Assembly (NCBI GenBank): GCA_022822065.1
Contig: JAJECI010000008.1
Coordinates: forward strand, 1-64,000
Direction: 5' to 3'
DNA length: 64,000 nucleotides
Source of the DNA: Candidatus Dadabacteria bacterium
GTDB taxonomy: Bacteria > Desulfobacterota_D > UBA1144 > Nemesobacterales > Nemesobacteraceae
Position 1 is the stretch's first letter, and every line of letters begins with the position of its first letter. A program made the position numbers and the translations under genes. Shown here one piece after another: positions 11,426-21,503 of the stretch. A model generated the notes under the pieces. The model had not been told where the DNA came from. It saw nothing but the letters and a program-made list of their open reading frames with translations, and did no database searches.

Positions 11426-13135
11426 CTAATCATCAACAGGAACAAGTTCACGGTTTCCCGTGCCGGGAAGCACTTTAAAAATCTTGGACGCGGATACCTT
11501 TTCACTGAACTCGGGTTCACTGGCTGTATCGACGTATATCCACTCGGAGCGGGCTTCTTGCGGAGTGAAGCTTACAATCATGTAGCCGCGGTCACTTGCG
11601 TTTGAGTAAACAAGATCGTCAACCAGAGTTTCCACGGCTCGGGAAAACTGTGCCGCAAACGCCTCCGGCAAGCCCAGAACAGCTTCGATACCTCCAGATG
11701 TTACAGAAGGTCCGGCAAACTCAACGCCTACCTGGTTGCCCTCCGCATCCTTAAGGTTGTTCGCCCATCCGTTATGGGTATCCCCGGCAAGCACCACAAG
11801 GTTCCTGTCCGCACTGTAAGCCGCACCCAGCACCGCCTCCCGTTCCACAGGGTAACCGTCCCAGGCGTCAAGATTATAGGGAAGCACCGTATTTATACGC
11901 TCCAGCTCATTCTGAGTCAGGGAAGTATCACCTTGCAGCGCCTGGGCTTTAATTCCGGTCAGCTCCAGGGTATCAAGTGCGAGCTGCGACGTCGGATTCT
12001 CCAAATGAACCAGCAGTTCGACCGGGAGATTCATTCTGCCCATAAGCGACTGCTGACCCAGAACTTGCCAGGTGGCAGCCGAACCGGTCAGCTGCTCAAG
12101 CAGCCAGTCAAGCTGAGTGGAGCCAAGAAGCGTCTGCGACTGCATGTCCATCTGAAGACGCTGAATATCAATTCCAGCCTGCGTGAAATAATCTCCATAA
12201 TCAAGTTGTTTGTCCCTCGCCACTAAACGGGTCTCGAGCATGTGAAGATCCACCAGGTTTCCGAAAGAAAAACTGCGGTAGGCAGCCTCGCGCCCTTGTG
12301 TGTTCTCGCGAATCGGCATCCACTCATAATAAGCCTGCAAAGCAACTATTTTTCGCGTCTCGAAATCGCCTTCCCCCTCGTTGTGATTAGACGCGCCGTC
12401 CTTGTAGGAATTATCCGCAACCTCATGATCGTCCCATATCGCTATGAAAGGATGCACAGCGTGCAGTTCCTGAAGCCGCGAGTTTGATCGGTAGAGCGCA
12501 TAGCGTTTTCGATAATCATCAAGAGTCAGGATTTCAATATCGTTATCCCCCGGCAAATTCCTTATTATTTCTTCCGAATTCGCGAGACTTAAACCTTCGG
12601 TATCGTACTCGTAGATATAATCTCCCAGATACAAAACGGCATCCACATCGGCATCCTTGGCATGAGCATAGACGTTAAAGTAACCGGAGGCATAGCTGGC
12701 GCATGAAAACACGGCCAGCTTGACGGAACTTACATCGCCTTGCGGCAGGGTCTTGGTGCGGCCGGTCGGTGACGTCACACCGTTCGAACGGAACCTATAG
12801 TAGTAAACGGTGCCGGCTTCAAGCCCCTCAAAATCAATTTTTACCGTGTAATCCTGCTCAGCCGTAGTGGTAGTCGTAACCGGATCGCCCACAAGATTCG
12901 TGAATTCCTCATCCGTGGCTACTTCAACCGTGACTTCCACCGTTTCCCGTGACCCGGGCGGAGTCACCCTTGTCCAGAGAATCACCCTGTCCGAAAGCGG
13001 GTCACCGCTTGCGACTCCATGGTCAAAGCTTACGTTGCTGCCGGAATCTCCGCACGAGGCAAAACTGAAGAGCGCCAAGGCAACCGCGAAAAGCGAGACT
13101 GTAAAGAAAGGGAAAAAACGTTTCCAGAGAAACAT
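11426..13135 (-). CDS. phoD: PhoD-family alkaline phosphatase, lipoprotein
   Basis: Secreted Ca/Fe-type phosphatase or phosphodiesterase of the PhoD family, 569 residues from the ATG at 13135, chosen for the AAGGAGG eight bases upstream. The N-terminus MFLWKRFFPFF with a hydrophobic core ends in the lipobox FASC, so the mature protein is predicted to be a membrane-anchored lipoprotein. A PhoD N-terminal beta domain (VASGDPLSDRVILWTRVTP) precedes the metallophosphoesterase part with GDYIYEYD, WDDHEVADN and GDTHNGWANNL supplying metal ligands. It is a close tandem paralogue of the next gene upstream. Confidence 0.92.
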   Translation of the reverse strand: MFLWKRFFPFFTVSLFAVALALFSFASCGDSGSNVSFDHGVASGDPLSDRVILWTRVTPPGSRETVEVTVEVATDEEFTNLVGDPVTTTTTAEQDYTVKIDFEGLEAGTVYYYRFRSNGVTSPTGRTKTLPQGDVSSVKLAVFSCASYASGYFNVYAHAKDADVDAVLYLGDYIYEYDTEGLSLANSEEIIRNLPGDNDIEILTLDDYRKRYALYRSNSRLQELHAVHPFIAIWDDHEVADNSYKDGASNHNEGEGDFETRKIVALQAYYEWMPIRENTQGREAAYRSFSFGNLVDLHMLETRLVARDKQLDYGDYFTQAGIDIQRLQMDMQSQTLLGSTQLDWLLEQLTGSAATWQVLGQQSLMGRMNLPVELLVHLENPTSQLALDTLELTGIKAQALQGDTSLTQNELERINTVLPYNLDAWDGYPVEREAVLGAAYSADRNLVVLAGDTHNGWANNLKDAEGNQVGVEFAGPSVTSGGIEAVLGLPEAFAAQFSRAVETLVDDLVYSNASDRGYMIVSFTPQEARSEWIYVDTASEPEFSEKVSASKIFKVLPGTGNRELVPVDD

Positions 13136-13297
13136 TGTAATTACCTCCTTATGGAGCAAGCAACTCCCGGTTTATTCTACGCAAAATCAAAGAAGATTTG
13201 GAGTGAAAAAGTTTTAGAGTCAGATTTTTCCAGAGATGCATGGTCGCCGTCTTTTTTAGTTTACGAGAATTATAAATATCTCATTACGAATACGGGA

Positions 13298-15022
13298 TCA
13301 GTCAGAAACAACCCTGCGGTTTCCCCTTCCGGCAAGCACGCCAAGGGTCTTTTCACTTGAAATCAGTTCCCTGAATTCCGGACGTTTGACGGTATCCACA
13401 TATATCCACCGCGACTTGGCCCTTTTCGGAGTAAAACTGACAATCATATAACCGCGGTCCTTTGTGTTTGAATAGACAAGATCATCAATCAGCACCTGTA
13501 AATCCCGCGCGAATTCCTCAGCCTGTTCGGGTTCAAGTTTCAGATAAGTTTCTAGACCTCCCGAGGACACAGACGCGGTAGCAAATTCAACGCCGACCTG
13601 ATTGCCTCCTGCGTCCTTGAGATCATTTGCCCACCCGTTATGCGTATCCCCGGCAAGCACTACCAAGTTCTTATCCCCTCCGTAGGCCGCACCTAACACC
13701 GCTTCACGCTCTGCAGGGTAACCGTCCCAGGCGTCAAGATTATAGGGAAGCACCGCATTTACACGGTCCCGCTCATCCCGAGTTACGGAAGGATCATCCC
13801 GCAGCACCCGCTCCTTAATCCCGGTCAGTTCATCTATAAGACCTGCGACCTGCGGTGTGCGTTTACCTAGGTCGGGAATTATTTCAGCGGGAATGTTCAT
13901 TCTGCCCATAAGCACCTGCTGACCCAGAACCTGCCAAGCGGCGGTTGAGCCGGCAAGCTTCCCCTGAAGCCAGGCAAGCTGATCCCGACCGAGCAGCGTC
14001 CGGTCCGGAGAACCTATATCCTCACGGAAACGCCGGGCGTCGAAACCGGTATCCGGGTCGAAATAATCCTTGTAACTAAGCTGTTTTTCCCGTCCGGCAA
14101 GGCGTGTATCGAGCATGAAAAGTTCAACCAGGTTTCCGAAAGAAAAATTGCGGTAGACCCGCCCGGAATCATTCTCTTTTACCGGACGAACCGGCATCCA
14201 CTCGTAATATGCCCGAAGTGCGGCTTCTTTGCGCGCATCGAAACTGCCTTCACCTTCATTGTGGTTCTGAGCGCCATCCATATAAGCGTCGTTTGCGACC
14301 TCATGATCATCCCAGACGGTGATGAACGGATGCGCGGCATGAAGAGCCTGAAGCTGGAAATCGGTTCTGTATAGGGCGTAACGCTTTCGGTAATCGTCAA
14401 GCGCAAGGATTTCCTTGTCGCTGTATTCCGGGAGGTCCCTGCCAGATCCCTGGGGATTATCGTTCTCCGAACCCGGCGCCTTGCCGTACTCGTAGATATA
14501 ATCGCCGAGGTGTACCACGGCATCGACGTCAGTTGCTTTCGCCGCGTGACCGTAAACGTTAAAGTAACCGCCATGAGAGGTAGGATAGTTCGCGCATGAA
14601 AACACCGCCAACCTAACCGAATCCACATCGCCCCGCGGCAGAGTCTTGGTACGGCCGATAACCGATTCAGCCTCACCCGAGCGAAAACGGTAGTAATAAA
14701 CTGTCCCGGCCGAAAGACCCTCAACATCGATTTTTACCGTGTAATCGCTCTCGGCCGTGGCGCTCTTAACAGAACTGTGAACAATGTTTGTGAACTTCTC
14801 ATCCGAAGCGACTTCGACCCTTACCCTGACCCTTTTCTGAGATTCCTGCGGAGTGACCCTCGTCCAGAGAATAACCCTGTCGTCCAGAGGGTCGCCGCTT
14901 GCAACACCATGTTCAAAACTCACGCGCCCCGAATCGCCGTAGAGCGTAAAGCCAATAGCGACAAGCAGAAGGACGAAAAGCAGAATGGCCGAAGCATAAA
15001 CGAGATGTTTTCTCAAAAACAC
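13298..15022 (-). CDS. phoD: PhoD-family alkaline phosphatase, second tandem copy without lipobox
   Basis: 574 residues starting at GTG 15022, preceded by GGGGAGGA. By eye it aligns along its whole length with the neighbouring PhoD lipoprotein: VASGDPLDDRVILWTRVTP, GDYIYEYG, WDDHEVANDAY, GDTHNGWANDL. All visible metal-ligand motifs are kept, so it should be active. The N-terminal hydrophobic segment (residues 9-26) is followed by LYGDSG, where the other copy has SCGDSG, so the lipobox cysteine is replaced by tyrosine. It is therefore probably released into the periplasm or held by an uncleaved anchor. The two copies are 162 bases apart and each has its own ribosome site. Confidence 0.92.
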   Translation of the reverse strand: MFLRKHLVYASAILLFVLLLVAIGFTLYGDSGRVSFEHGVASGDPLDDRVILWTRVTPQESQKRVRVRVEVASDEKFTNIVHSSVKSATAESDYTVKIDVEGLSAGTVYYYRFRSGEAESVIGRTKTLPRGDVDSVRLAVFSCANYPTSHGGYFNVYGHAAKATDVDAVVHLGDYIYEYGKAPGSENDNPQGSGRDLPEYSDKEILALDDYRKRYALYRTDFQLQALHAAHPFITVWDDHEVANDAYMDGAQNHNEGEGSFDARKEAALRAYYEWMPVRPVKENDSGRVYRNFSFGNLVELFMLDTRLAGREKQLSYKDYFDPDTGFDARRFREDIGSPDRTLLGRDQLAWLQGKLAGSTAAWQVLGQQVLMGRMNIPAEIIPDLGKRTPQVAGLIDELTGIKERVLRDDPSVTRDERDRVNAVLPYNLDAWDGYPAEREAVLGAAYGGDKNLVVLAGDTHNGWANDLKDAGGNQVGVEFATASVSSGGLETYLKLEPEQAEEFARDLQVLIDDLVYSNTKDRGYMIVSFTPKRAKSRWIYVDTVKRPEFRELISSEKTLGVLAGRGNRRVVSD

Positions 15023-15912: not shown

Positions 15913-16413
15913 CTACATTTTGCCCTTGGGAGGTCTGTGCTTTTTGGGCCTGTCCTTTTCCTCTATGTAATCTCCAATGTAAGTTCTGTTTCTAACCGAA
16001 GGCGGCAAGTTCGAGAGATCGGGCTTCGGCATATTGGTCGAGAGGTCCTTGGTAAAAGCGAAAGTCGAGATAACTTTCTCCACCTTCTTTTTCTCCCCGC
16101 AGGGGCACTTTACGTTTTTCTCGTCTCCCTCTTCGTATATAAGCTCGGAAAATCTGTAGTTTTGCATGTTAAAAAGCGCAAGCAGGTCTCCGTCATTAAG
16201 ATAGAAATCGCTGAATACGGAGTCTTTTCCCTTCCTTCCGTGCCTCGCGACTATTTCTTCGCGTTCAAGGTCGATAACTTCTATGGCGTAAATGTTGTCA
16301 TATTTCTCGACAAGGTTTTTCACGGTCTTCTTGTCCCGTTTTCTTTCAAGAGCCTTGAGTGATTTCTCAACGTTGTCTCTGCACTTGATGCATTCAAATT
16401 CATAGAGGGGCAT
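15913..16413 (-). CDS. Split FmdB-like zinc-ribbon protein, second of a pair
   Basis: 166 residues. It starts MPLYEFECIKC, the usual opening of FmdB-type regulatory zinc ribbons with the first knuckle C8xxC11. In normal FmdB proteins the second CxxC follows within about 25 residues. Here it lies at residues 103-105, after about 90 residues of extra sequence, and reads CPCG, so the spacing is CxC. The sequence after it (VEKVISTFAF) matches the segment following the FmdB knuckle. The C-terminus is basic and proline-rich (KKHRPPKGKM). The gene starts 9 bases after the stop of its paralogue. Function unknown. Confidence 0.7.
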   Translation of the reverse strand: MPLYEFECIKCRDNVEKSLKALERKRDKKTVKNLVEKYDNIYAIEVIDLEREEIVARHGRKGKDSVFSDFYLNDGDLLALFNMQNYRFSELIYEEGDEKNVKCPCGEKKKVEKVISTFAFTKDLSTNMPKPDLSNLPPSVRNRTYIGDYIEEKDRPKKHRPPKGKM

Positions 16414-16422
16414 TTGCGTCTC

Positions 16423-16926
16423 CTATCTGTTGAAATACTGGTTCAGGTGATCCTGCCCTACCCAGTCGCTCGCTATCTCTTCATCCTTCTGCTGCTTGTA
16501 TTCAAGATGCCATCTAAGCTCATCCCCGGGACCCGGAGCTCTCTTGTTCTTGTCATCGAATATGGCCTTGAAGGTGGAAAAGATCCTTCTCACCGACTCC
16601 GAATCATCGCAGAGAGGGCATATGACTTCTTCCTGATCGTCATCTCCGTACACAAGATGGTCGAAACGGAAATCCTTAAGCTCAAGGTAAAGAATCTTCC
16701 CGTTATCAAGCTTGTAACGAAACCTTCTCGCGCCGCGTACGCCCTTTTCCCCCAGTTCGAAAAACAGTTTTCCATTCTTGTCGCTTGTGACTTCAATGTA
16801 ACAGAAGTTGCGGTTCTGCTTGAAAACTTTCCTTGCGTTCGTCTTGGTGAGCTTGGCGACCAGACTGTCTATGTCCGTGTTGTAGCTCTCCATGCAACTG
16901 TCGCATTCATATTCGTATAACGGCAC
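16423..16926 (-). CDS. Split FmdB-like zinc-ribbon protein, first of a pair
   Basis: 167 residues with the same plan as the following gene: MPLYEYECDSC (C8, C11), a roughly 90-residue insert of mixed alpha/beta character, then CPLC at 103-106 and VRRIFSTFKA, the typical continuation of an FmdB ribbon. Insert landmarks shared by both copies are YIEV/YAIEV near 43-46, a FRF/YRF-x-x-L-(V/I)-Y segment just before the second knuckle, and a string of acidic residues. The C-terminal 45 residues differ between the copies. It lies behind a perfect dyad holding a TATAAT on each strand. The zinc-ribbon part is recognised; the insert is not. Confidence 0.7.
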   Translation of the reverse strand: MPLYEYECDSCMESYNTDIDSLVAKLTKTNARKVFKQNRNFCYIEVTSDKNGKLFFELGEKGVRGARRFRYKLDNGKILYLELKDFRFDHLVYGDDDQEEVICPLCDDSESVRRIFSTFKAIFDDKNKRAPGPGDELRWHLEYKQQKDEEIASDWVGQDHLNQYFNR

Positions 16927-16957: not shown

Positions 16958-16978
16958 AGATTATAAACAATATAATCT
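16958..16978. promoter_or_regulatory. Perfect 8-base dyad with back-to-back -10 boxes
   Basis: AGATTATA (16958-16965) and its exact reverse complement TATAATCT (16971-16978) flank AACAA. Each arm contains a TATAAT on one strand. On the minus strand it pairs with TTTAAA at 16982-16987 (16-base spacer), giving a plausible promoter for the zinc-ribbon pair with a leader of about 27 nt. The plus-strand -10 points towards the exonuclease gene but has only a weak -35. Such a symmetric element could also bind a dimeric repressor. Confidence 0.5.
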
Positions 16979-17055
16979 GAGTTTAAAGCCCGAAAACGCC
17001 GAAGCGGCGGAAACACCACTGAAAGAAATCCGATTATGGTTCATAATGTAGGAGA

Positions 17056-17676
17056 ATGAAAAAAGCCGGAAAACCGAAAACGCCCCGCGAGCGAAACGGA
17101 AAAAACTATCTCCCCGCGGGTAAAAATCTGGATTTCGTGGCCGTTGACGTCGAGACAGCGAATTCAAACGTTTCAAGCATCTGCCAGGTGGGCATCGCCG
17201 TAGTCAGGTCAGCGGAGATCAAAGACGTATGGACGCAGCTTATTGATCCGTATGACTTTTTTGATCCGTACAATACCGCCATACACGGCATAGACCACAA
17301 GATGGCAAGTGGCCATCCTCGGTTCGAAGAACTATGCGACAAGATCGCGCGATACCTAGGAGAAATCGTCGTAAGCCATACATTCTTTGACCGCAGGGCA
17401 CTCTCAAAAGCGTTTGAGGAGTGTGGAAAATCTCTTCGTTACGAAATCTGGATTGACAGCGCGCAGGTAGCGCGACGCGCCTGGCCGGATAAATACGCCC
17501 TGAGGGGTTACAATCTCGGGAATATTGCCCGCGATCTCGGGATCCCCTTTCGCCACCACGACGCCGGAGAAGACGCAAGAGTCGCGGCGGAAATCGTTAT
17601 GAGGGCATACGCGGATACCGAATTCGGAATAAACGGGCTGCTCGACTTGGGGGTCGTGGCAAAGCACGAGAAGTGA
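17056..17676 (+). CDS. DEDDh-family 3'-5' exonuclease (DNA polymerase III epsilon-like)
   Basis: 206 residues. The exonuclease fold starts at about residue 25 with FVAVDVETAN (ExoI motif, D and E). It continues with IHGID and VVSHTFFDRRAL (ExoII aspartate) and ends with HDAGEDARVAAE (ExoIII, H and D). This is the catalytic set of RNase T/epsilon-type exonucleases. There is no BRCT, helicase or polymerase domain, so it is a stand-alone nuclease of unknown partner. The first 24 residues are basic and unconserved. The AGGAG lies only one base from the ATG and a CATAAT sits 9 bases upstream, so a very short or absent leader is likely. Confidence 0.85.
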   Translation: MKKAGKPKTPRERNGKNYLPAGKNLDFVAVDVETANSNVSSICQVGIAVVRSAEIKDVWTQLIDPYDFFDPYNTAIHGIDHKMASGHPRFEELCDKIARYLGEIVVSHTFFDRRALSKAFEECGKSLRYEIWIDSAQVARRAWPDKYALRGYNLGNIARDLGIPFRHHDAGEDARVAAEIVMRAYADTEFGINGLLDLGVVAKHEK

Positions 17677-18020
17677 TAGGCAAAAACGAAATCGGTCTCT
17701 GCTGCTTGAGAGTTAAACCCAGAGCTTGTTATTGCGTAAAAGAATTCCCCCAGAGAACGTTGCCATCCGCACGGAGCGGGCCTGCCTGTTTTAGCCCCAT
17801 ATTAATACTACCTTTTCAACATATTTGAAGACCGCTACCTTCTACGAAGAAACGGTTTAAAAAAGCCTTGACTACACAGGGGAGGGGGTAATATCCTCTA
17901 AGATATAATGTTCTCGAAATTAAAAGCCTTGATCATGTCTCGGAGAAACCGATAAACTCGCTAGAACTCTTCCATTTAACCTTGGGAGTTACCATAAAGG
18001 CCGTGTTGAGAGACCACATT
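17677..18020. other. Intergenic region before the Cache protein gene
   Basis: No credible gene was found in these 344 bases. A possible weak promoter is TTGACT (17868-17873) with TAATAT (17889-17894) at a 15-base spacing. A separate TATAAT at 17904-17909 lacks a good -35. The open frame that enters from 17982 with a TTG start belongs to the Cache gene but is unlikely to be translated, because the signal peptide begins at 18021. Confidence 0.35.
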
Positions 18021-19232
18021 ATGAAAATCTCTGCATTAAAAAGTGTTTTTATTTTCGTACTGGCATTTATATGCGTTCTTTGCCATATCCATTCGGCCTC
18101 AGCTCACGGAGAGCACGCAAACGCCAGCAAAAAAACTGCAACAGCCAGCGAAGCAGGAGATAGCCGAAACGCTCTAAAGGAATTTGTACTGCACGCAAAA
18201 GCGCACTGGGAAGTGCCGGTTCCGCGCGAACGGAGCCTTGATCTCTGGCAACAGATACTGCACGAAGTGCAAGAGCAAGGAGACTGGAAATCCGGTTCCA
18301 ATTATCTCATTCTAGTTGACAAACAAGGCAGGTCCATAGCCCATGGATACTATGAATCAGCACCCGGCCATGACATAAGCGTTTGGCGGGATGCAAGAGG
18401 AACCGACGTAGTGCAAGAACTCATCGAAGTTGCTCAAGCCAACGAACAAGGAGGGTTTGTTGACTACTACTGGGATGACCCTAATGACCCGTCAGACAGC
18501 GTCATCTCGCCCAAGTCGGCCTACGCAGTTAATTACACAGTCCGCGCGCTGGGAATTGAATTCGTTCTGATCGGGGGTCTTCATCACGAGGAAGTGATCC
18601 CAACCATGCTTGAAGTCCTGAGAAAATACGTGCCCGAAGTGAAGGCAAGCACCGTAAAAGATCCCGATACTCTCAAGAATTTCGTGGAGAAAGCGTCTGA
18701 ATTCGTTACTCACGTGTATGAGGCTACACAGGGCAATATGGACATCACAAACTTGCTGGCAGTAAGCAACAGAGATGAAGCCTGGAAACACAATGAAATC
18801 TACCTTTTCGCCATCACCAAGCAAGGTCTTGCAGTATTTAATGGTCACGACCCAGATCTCATCAGAACACTCACCTTTAATCCCATGAATGTAGTAGACG
18901 GAAACGAGTTCGAAGTTGGAAGGGAAATGGTCAGAATAGCAGAGAAAGGAGGGGGCTTTGTCTACTACCTGTGGGATAATCCTTTGGTTGAGGGAGACGA
19001 AATCAACGAAATCGGCAAGGCAAAGGGAACTTCATTTAAGGTAGGCTATGTAAAGAAAGTAACACTCGGTGACGATAACTATATTCTCGGTTCGGGCTTC
19101 TATCCTGAGGAAGGAGAGGCATACCTAACTAGGCATAGAGAAGAAGGTAGAGTTACGCGTGGAATCATTACCGTATGTTTGGTTTTAGTCTTCATATTCG
19201 GGGCAGTTTGGTGGAAACTGCGTAGTCGGTAA
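18021..19232 (+). CDS. Secreted double-Cache-domain protein with C-terminal membrane anchor
   Basis: 403 residues from the ATG at 18021, which opens a clear signal peptide (MKISALKSVFIFVLAF, cleavage expected after HSASA, leaving HGEHANAS). Two related Cache-like modules follow, at about 50-190 and 210-370. Each contains a YLILVDKQG- or YLFAITKQG-type strand, a GHD motif and a G-G-F-V-x-Y-x-W-D-(D/N)-P segment. A single transmembrane helix (GIITVCLVLVFIFGAVWW) ends the protein. Cache domains usually sense small ligands for kinases or chemoreceptors, but no signalling domain is present, so it may be a binding subunit for an unlinked partner. Start alternatives: an upstream TTG at 17982. Confidence 0.75.
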   Translation: MKISALKSVFIFVLAFICVLCHIHSASAHGEHANASKKTATASEAGDSRNALKEFVLHAKAHWEVPVPRERSLDLWQQILHEVQEQGDWKSGSNYLILVDKQGRSIAHGYYESAPGHDISVWRDARGTDVVQELIEVAQANEQGGFVDYYWDDPNDPSDSVISPKSAYAVNYTVRALGIEFVLIGGLHHEEVIPTMLEVLRKYVPEVKASTVKDPDTLKNFVEKASEFVTHVYEATQGNMDITNLLAVSNRDEAWKHNEIYLFAITKQGLAVFNGHDPDLIRTLTFNPMNVVDGNEFEVGREMVRIAEKGGGFVYYLWDNPLVEGDEINEIGKAKGTSFKVGYVKKVTLGDDNYILGSGFYPEEGEAYLTRHREEGRVTRGIITVCLVLVFIFGAVWWKLRSR

Positions 19233-20969: not shown

Positions 20970-21503
20970 CTATTCTCCGTCCGTTCCAGATTCACGGTGC
21001 CCGATCTCTCCAAGTTTCTCACGAAGTTCCACGCTGTCAAGCGAATCAAACGGAAGGTCCTGAAACGCAGCGATACGCTCCTTGAGCAACTCGTAGGCTC
21101 TTTCAAAAGCTTCGCGCTGTTCGGTTTCAGTTCCCTCAATACCCGCGGGGTCCGCAAGACCCCAGTGAGCCGTCACCGGCCTGCCCGGCCACACGGGACA
21201 AGGTTCATTCGCCGCGTTGTCACACACCGTAAAGACAAAATCCATCAAAGGAACATCCTCCACCTCAAACTCATCCCAGGATTTGGAACGCAGATTCTCA
21301 ACATCGTGTCCCTTGCCAAGCAAGAGATCAAGAGCATGGGGGTGGACTTCTCCCCGGGGATGACTGCCCGCACTGTAGCCGATAAATCTTCCGTCGCTAT
21401 TGTTATTCAAAAGAGATTCAGCAATGATCGATCGAGCCGAATTGCCCGTGCAGAGAAACAGCACCCTGTAGGTTCGCCCGTGCGACGGCTTCTTTTCTTT
21501 CAT
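20970..21503 (-). CDS. arsC: Arsenate reductase, low-molecular-weight phosphatase family
   Basis: 177 residues. The anion-binding loop LFLCTGNSARS with the nucleophilic Cys near residue 18 defines the thioredoxin-coupled ArsC / LMW tyrosine-phosphatase fold. VCDNAANEPCPVWPG supplies the second redox cysteine, and HWGLADPAG is the conserved general-acid region. It should reduce arsenate to arsenite, or act as a phosphatase if the redox relay is unused. No arsR, acr3 or arsM lies nearby, unusual for ArsC. Its promoter region is shared with the divergent enoyl-CoA hydratase gene. Confidence 0.87.
   Translation of the reverse strand: MKEKKPSHGRTYRVLFLCTGNSARSIIAESLLNNNSDGRFIGYSAGSHPRGEVHPHALDLLLGKGHDVENLRSKSWDEFEVEDVPLMDFVFTVCDNAANEPCPVWPGRPVTAHWGLADPAGIEGTETEQREAFERAYELLKERIAAFQDLPFDSLDSVELREKLGEIGHRESGTDGE

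Follow-up and report, generated by a model that had tools for sequence, protein, structure and literature searches.

The window analysed here, a stretch of 64,000 nucleotides from a 1.63 Mb Candidatus Dadabacteria genome in 12 contigs, carries two adjacent genes on its minus strand, B and then A, separated by 9 bp and each encoding an FmdB-type zinc ribbon with an inserted domain and a conserved tail (Table 1). The coordinates and reading frames given for both genes in an earlier note on this DNA were exact, as was its description of the second knuckle as CxC in A and CxxC in B. Mean dN/dS within the genus was 0.11 for A (12 genomes) and 0.13 for B (13 genomes), indicating purifying selection; because of these low values and the retention of the pair across the families of the phylum, we regard A and B as real genes. 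Two ordinary FmdB-type proteins are encoded elsewhere in the same genome.

Table 1. Features of the A/B locus in the window.
Feature	Position	Strand	Description or basis
Gene B, upstream of A (167 aa from a GTG codon)	16423..16926	-	FmdB zinc ribbon, inserted domain, B-specific tail
Gene A, downstream of B (166 aa from an ATG codon)	15913..16413	-	FmdB zinc ribbon, inserted domain, A-specific tail
B first zinc knuckle, C8-D-S-C11	16894..16905	-	Sequence of B
Domain inserted in B, residues 15-85, with two helices and five strands at a pLDDT of about 83-92	16672..16884	-	AlphaFold model
B second zinc knuckle, C103-P-L-C106	16609..16620	-	Sequence of B
B-specific conserved tail, residues 120-167, KAIFDDK..RAPGPGDELRWHLEYKQQKDEE..WVGQDHLNQYF	16426..16569	-	Comparison over the phylum
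A first zinc knuckle, C8-I-K-C11	16381..16392	-	Sequence of A
A inserted domain, residues 15-85	16159..16371	-	Missing from gene A of G001, G002 and G005
A second knuckle, C103-P-C105 (other families of Dadabacteria have CPxC)	16099..16107	-	Sequence of A
A-specific conserved tail, residues 119-166, DLSTNMPKPDLSNLPPSVR..YIEEKDRPKK	15916..16059	-	Kept even in insert-less A
Promoter-like site before B, TTTAAA-16-TATAAT	16960..16987	-	Conserved within the genus (13 genomes)

Both halves of the ribbon were found in order in A and B with the residues of the family (MPLYEYEC..C, RF.EL or RF.HL, C103 and S-x-F). Against TIGR02605 (cut-off 31.3 bits) A scored above at 34.7 bits and B just below at 29.2, and against PF09723 (Zn_ribbon_8) they scored 26.8 and 26.6 bits, under the cut-off of 34.4, with the match split by the insert; the hits to TIGR02605 likewise came in separate pieces, and PF09723 matched 21 of 21 members. 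The pair shares with these FmdB families the N-terminal MPLYEYEC..C, the -F-E- strand, the second CPxC knuckle and the S-x-F ribbon end, but differs in carrying about 73 residues after the first knuckle and two conserved paralogue-specific tails, in tandem, and in that many A proteins have lost the second knuckle or have it as CxC. The knuckles lie about 92 residues apart in both genes of the window, whereas a continuous FmdB ribbon measures about 41-52 residues as a whole, and a continuous two-knuckle ribbon was found only in the insert-less A of three genomes (G001, G002 and G005). Weak matches to DUF1178 (PF06676) occurred in 6 of the 21, but the best of them (E 0.0011) scored far too low to place the proteins in that family. 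Outside the A/B locus, a further FmdB-type subfamily was observed (L133 in G030 and L134 in G026; MPIYEY(H/D)C..C(R/K)K(D/T)VSIFFLT(L/I)SEA...). Its ribbon loop is a little longer, and the two proteins have similar tails.

The boundaries of the insert could be read from the short form of A. In the three genomes concerned, a gene with an ordinary-length FmdB ribbon occupies the same operon place after B and carries the A-specific tail, and the 87-aa protein of G001 and G002 reads MPLYEYECLKCKHKFSEIIYQKDEEKKLKCPKCKSKKWERLFSSF, then AVVADLSTNMPKPDLSNLPPEVR...EEKDRPKKNR. Since F15 of the short A equals F88 of the long A, the insert, placed between the first knuckle and the '-FE-' strand of FmdB proteins, is about 73 residues long. 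The shared insert of the earlier note was real, but its proposed length of 90 residues was too great (about 73, roughly residues 15-85), as YRFSELIY (residues 86-93) is part of the ribbon, forming the ordinary FmdB '-FE-' strand. The suspected relationship between the two inserts was borne out by hhalign, which found them homologous (98.1%, E 9.1e-14). The scores of the ribbon halves against the FmdB families would also suit two ordinary FmdB proteins distorted by alignment artefacts or an annotation error, a reading that the data refute and whose probability is close to negligible: purifying selection acts on both open frames, the roughly 73-residue insert recurs in both paralogues throughout the families of the phylum (except where secondarily missing), and the insert-less form shows the exact seam. 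Because this natural form fixes the boundaries, the split of the knuckles is not an artefact of alignment.

The AlphaFold models of A and B, from input alignments of 21 sequences each that overlapped heavily and left the models not independent, contained the same elements, with a strand at residues 3-8, helices at 9-24 and 28-37, middle strands near 41-48, 54-59, 67-72, 77-83 and 87-91, and, last, a short strand near 111-117. Residues 11-90 had a pLDDT of about 83-94, against about 44-58 for the tails. The confidently predicted fold of the insert, together with the natural insert-less form, upheld the view of a ribbon interrupted by a whole domain, and searches by sequence of Pfam, NCBIfam and the PDB agreed with the suggestion that this domain belongs to no known family, as no domain and no solved structure was matched.

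By structure, the top Foldseek matches of the A model were the sensor domains KinD, CqsR and 6lkg (E 0.016-0.26, probability up to 0.99), and those of the B model were DraK (E 0.072) and KinD; no PDB match of either model fell under E 0.001, and the TM-score was about 0.27 on query length. We treat the predicted CACHE/PAS-like resemblance of the insert as a lead. The insert is weakly like the CACHE/PDC sensors (KinD 4jgp/4jgr, CqsR 9nia, DraK 2mj6) in having helices followed by an antiparallel sheet, but it is only about 73 residues long, has neither membrane segments nor a helix between strands 2 and 3, matches them nowhere in sequence (including the CACHE/PAS-type families of Pfam), and has no significant fold match (best E 0.016). 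Such a domain could in principle make A and B a ligand- or redox-sensing regulator pair, in which the insert would bind a small molecule and alter a ribbon acting on transcription or on the divergent hydratase gene described below. The sensor domains among the Foldseek matches favour this reading, and the lack of any match under E 0.001, the low TM-score and the lack of a DNA-binding domain count against it.

The pair was observed in 53 of 58 Dadabacteria genomes, including 41 of the 43 good genomes and streamlined genomes of about 1 Mb, and in 21 of 22 genera. In the five remaining genomes the orthologous enoyl-CoA hydratase was also missing (G008, G023, G031 and G044) or cut at a contig end (G040); true loss of the pair was considered for these five and seems the less likely reading, as the state of the syntenic hydratase fits an assembly gap. 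The view of a duplicated gene was supported; A and B each formed one clade (support 100/100), and their paralogue-specific tails were strongly conserved over the phylum. Because the inserts are homologous and A and B are each one clade, we place the insertion before the duplication, and both before the sampled families diverged. The simplest reading of the short A would then be loss of its insert within one clade and not an ancestral state, because the three short-A genomes group with G006 in the B tree (99/80) and gene A of G006 is broken inside the insert. At that locus (L115) the break, caused by stops or a frameshift, may be real decay or an assembly error, and the second ribbon half and tail are intact. 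The three short sequences branch first in the A tree, on half-filled rows, a placement that alone does not settle ancestry. Either a deletion or an exchange with an ordinary FmdB gene may have given rise to the short form.

A single-sequence scan of 84,980 species, which finds close relatives only, placed the closest homologues in Candidatus Dadabacteria. No full-length relative outside the phylum was observed in 329 genomes or in a second, partly overlapping sample of 391, these sets being a sample and not a census, with close sister phyla not chosen by name. Full-profile matches outside the phylum (E 9e-6 or weaker) covered only the second ribbon half, mostly within short ORFs. A profile of the insert alone, the check proposed earlier, gave only chance-level matches outside the phylum among 387 genomes; the best (E 3.3e-4, in G306) lay in an ORF without a ribbon, which we take to be FlaG-like. 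Viral contigs searched with profile A2 contained no relative, and no paper linking Dadabacteria with a zinc ribbon was found in the incomplete collection of literature searched. A and B are a phylum-wide variant of the FmdB ribbon, apparently undescribed so far.

The zinc sites of the two paralogues differed in their conservation. In B, C8 and C11 were kept in 51 of 51 orthologues and the second knuckle was CPxC in 38 of these, with its spacing changed in one family (f8); zinc binding by B is predicted. The second knuckle of A was CPxC in 23 proteins and CxC in about 20, and ligands were lost in several places, with C11 replaced by L in G048, a second knuckle of CKNNNSH in G014, and C103 lost in G049 and G052-G056. 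As A loses zinc ligands in several lineages, a four-cysteine switch is not essential to A everywhere.

B preceded A on the same strand in all 51 genomes from which both were extracted, with gaps of mostly 3-27 bp. The usual order was a gene that we take, from its sequence, to be era, followed by an enoyl-CoA hydratase (divergent), B, A, hisIE (convergent) and a hydantoinase-like gene. Among 21 loci the hydratase was conserved in 21 (directly divergent in most), hisIE in 19 and era in 17, and no chaperone, protease, metal or stress gene was recognised among these conserved neighbours. Since unrelated neighbours are conserved too, gene order is weak evidence of function. The constant hydratase does speak for the ligand- or redox-sensing regulator introduced above, but era and hisIE are conserved alongside it, so that the synteny may just be old, and in the genus of the window the hydratase lies about 4.6 kb away with other genes between and the pair unaltered. 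With zinc ligands also lost from A in places, we consider a sensing regulator quite unlikely. One of the intervening genes, at 17056-17676, encodes a DnaQ-like exonuclease between B and its ancestral neighbour, the hydratase, and occupies that place only in the window and G026 among the 21 loci, both from the same genus.

The dyad that the earlier note took for a dedicated promoter of the pair seems to be an accidental feature within an ordinary promoter. We rejected it as a regulatory signal, its right arm being broken in L030 and L035 and the whole being absent outside the genus; a TATAAT/TTAATAT-like -10 box persists in other families, where the dyad is absent. No stress operator was seen by eye, and the promoter appears housekeeping-like from its sequence. 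The idea of a metal- or redox-responsive regulator pair found no support, given this promoter, the eroded zinc ligands of A, and the lack of a linked DNA-binding domain and, in the survey of 21 loci, of any linked metal or stress gene. Judged by its promoter and spread, the pair seems to fit a constitutive housekeeping function better than a regulator of that type.

In a rival reading, the ribbon and conserved tails would dock on a housekeeping machine (ribosome, RNA polymerase or replisome), which the pair would serve as an accessory specific to this lineage. The near-universal presence of the pair in the phylum, genomes of about 1 Mb included, its housekeeping-like promoter, its strongly conserved paralogue-specific tails and the dropping of the insert but not the tail by A in one clade are consistent with this. 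We nevertheless hold it to be unlikely, as no ribosomal or polymerase genes lie beside the pair, and no solved ribosomal or polymerase subunit in the PDB was matched by sequence.

Our preferred, though tentative, reading is that A and B are a phylum-specific and probably constitutive FmdB-type pair that could act as a small hetero-oligomeric adaptor or chaperone. Among known systems the closest in kind to this proposed pair appears to be Ruc, the ribbon of which we take to be of FmdB type. Ruc (Rv0991c) of M. tuberculosis is a redox-regulated chaperone with a zinc-binding ribbon, the oxidised form of which prevents aggregation; it is encoded by a single gene, with a 17-residue stretch drawn in the ribbon and a variable, disordered tail, and genes of its type have chaperone or protease neighbours in part of their loci (PMC7448276). 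A and B resemble it in an N-terminal ribbon of four cysteines, for which zinc binding is predicted in B, followed by a polar tail. They are unlike Ruc in their inserted domain, in being a gene pair, in the lack of recognised chaperone neighbours and in the loss of zinc ligands that A can undergo, and whereas the tails of Ruc are variable and disordered, those of A and B, polar and of low pLDDT, are strongly conserved. An adaptor or chaperone role may be inferred from this likeness.

Comparison shows that, in an ancestor of the Dadabacteria, an FmdB ribbon received a domain of about 73 residues between its first knuckle and its second strand, and that tandem duplication and divergence of the copies followed, each with its own conserved tail. 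The ribbon would most likely serve as a structural clasp closing the base of the inserted domain, with B most likely the firm zinc binder and A the copy with a relaxed site. The two together may form the small hetero-oligomeric adaptor or chaperone, with their tails docking on a conserved partner. Pairing of A and B by way of their inserts would be difficult to reconcile with the clade in which A has lost its own, and the conserved neighbours (era, enoyl-CoA hydratase and hisIE, with no chaperone or protease recognised) stand against the adaptor or chaperone reading.

Few genes are near-universal in one phylum yet unseen in other sampled bacteria, and this pair, which persists even where the genome has been streamlined to 1 Mb, points towards a difference in some core process of Dadabacteria. 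It is possible, if somewhat doubtful, that A and B represent a new family marking the phylum, in which a sensor-like alpha/beta domain placed in the tip of a zinc ribbon was duplicated into an obligate two-subunit complex with a core, unrecognised task phylum-wide. The tip of the widespread FmdB ribbon can accommodate a domain, and the natural insert-less form gives an exact boundary for testing.

Several other genes of the window were also observed. A low-molecular-weight phosphatase or arsenate-reductase-like protein, under family cut-offs, is encoded at 20970-21503. The gene at 17982-19232 encodes a 416-aa probable secreted or membrane protein without a kinase or MCP part, two regions of which are weakly like the sensor parts of MctS and CtpM. 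On the minus strand, 11426-13159 and 13298-15022 encode a tandem pair of PhoD-like alkaline phosphatases.
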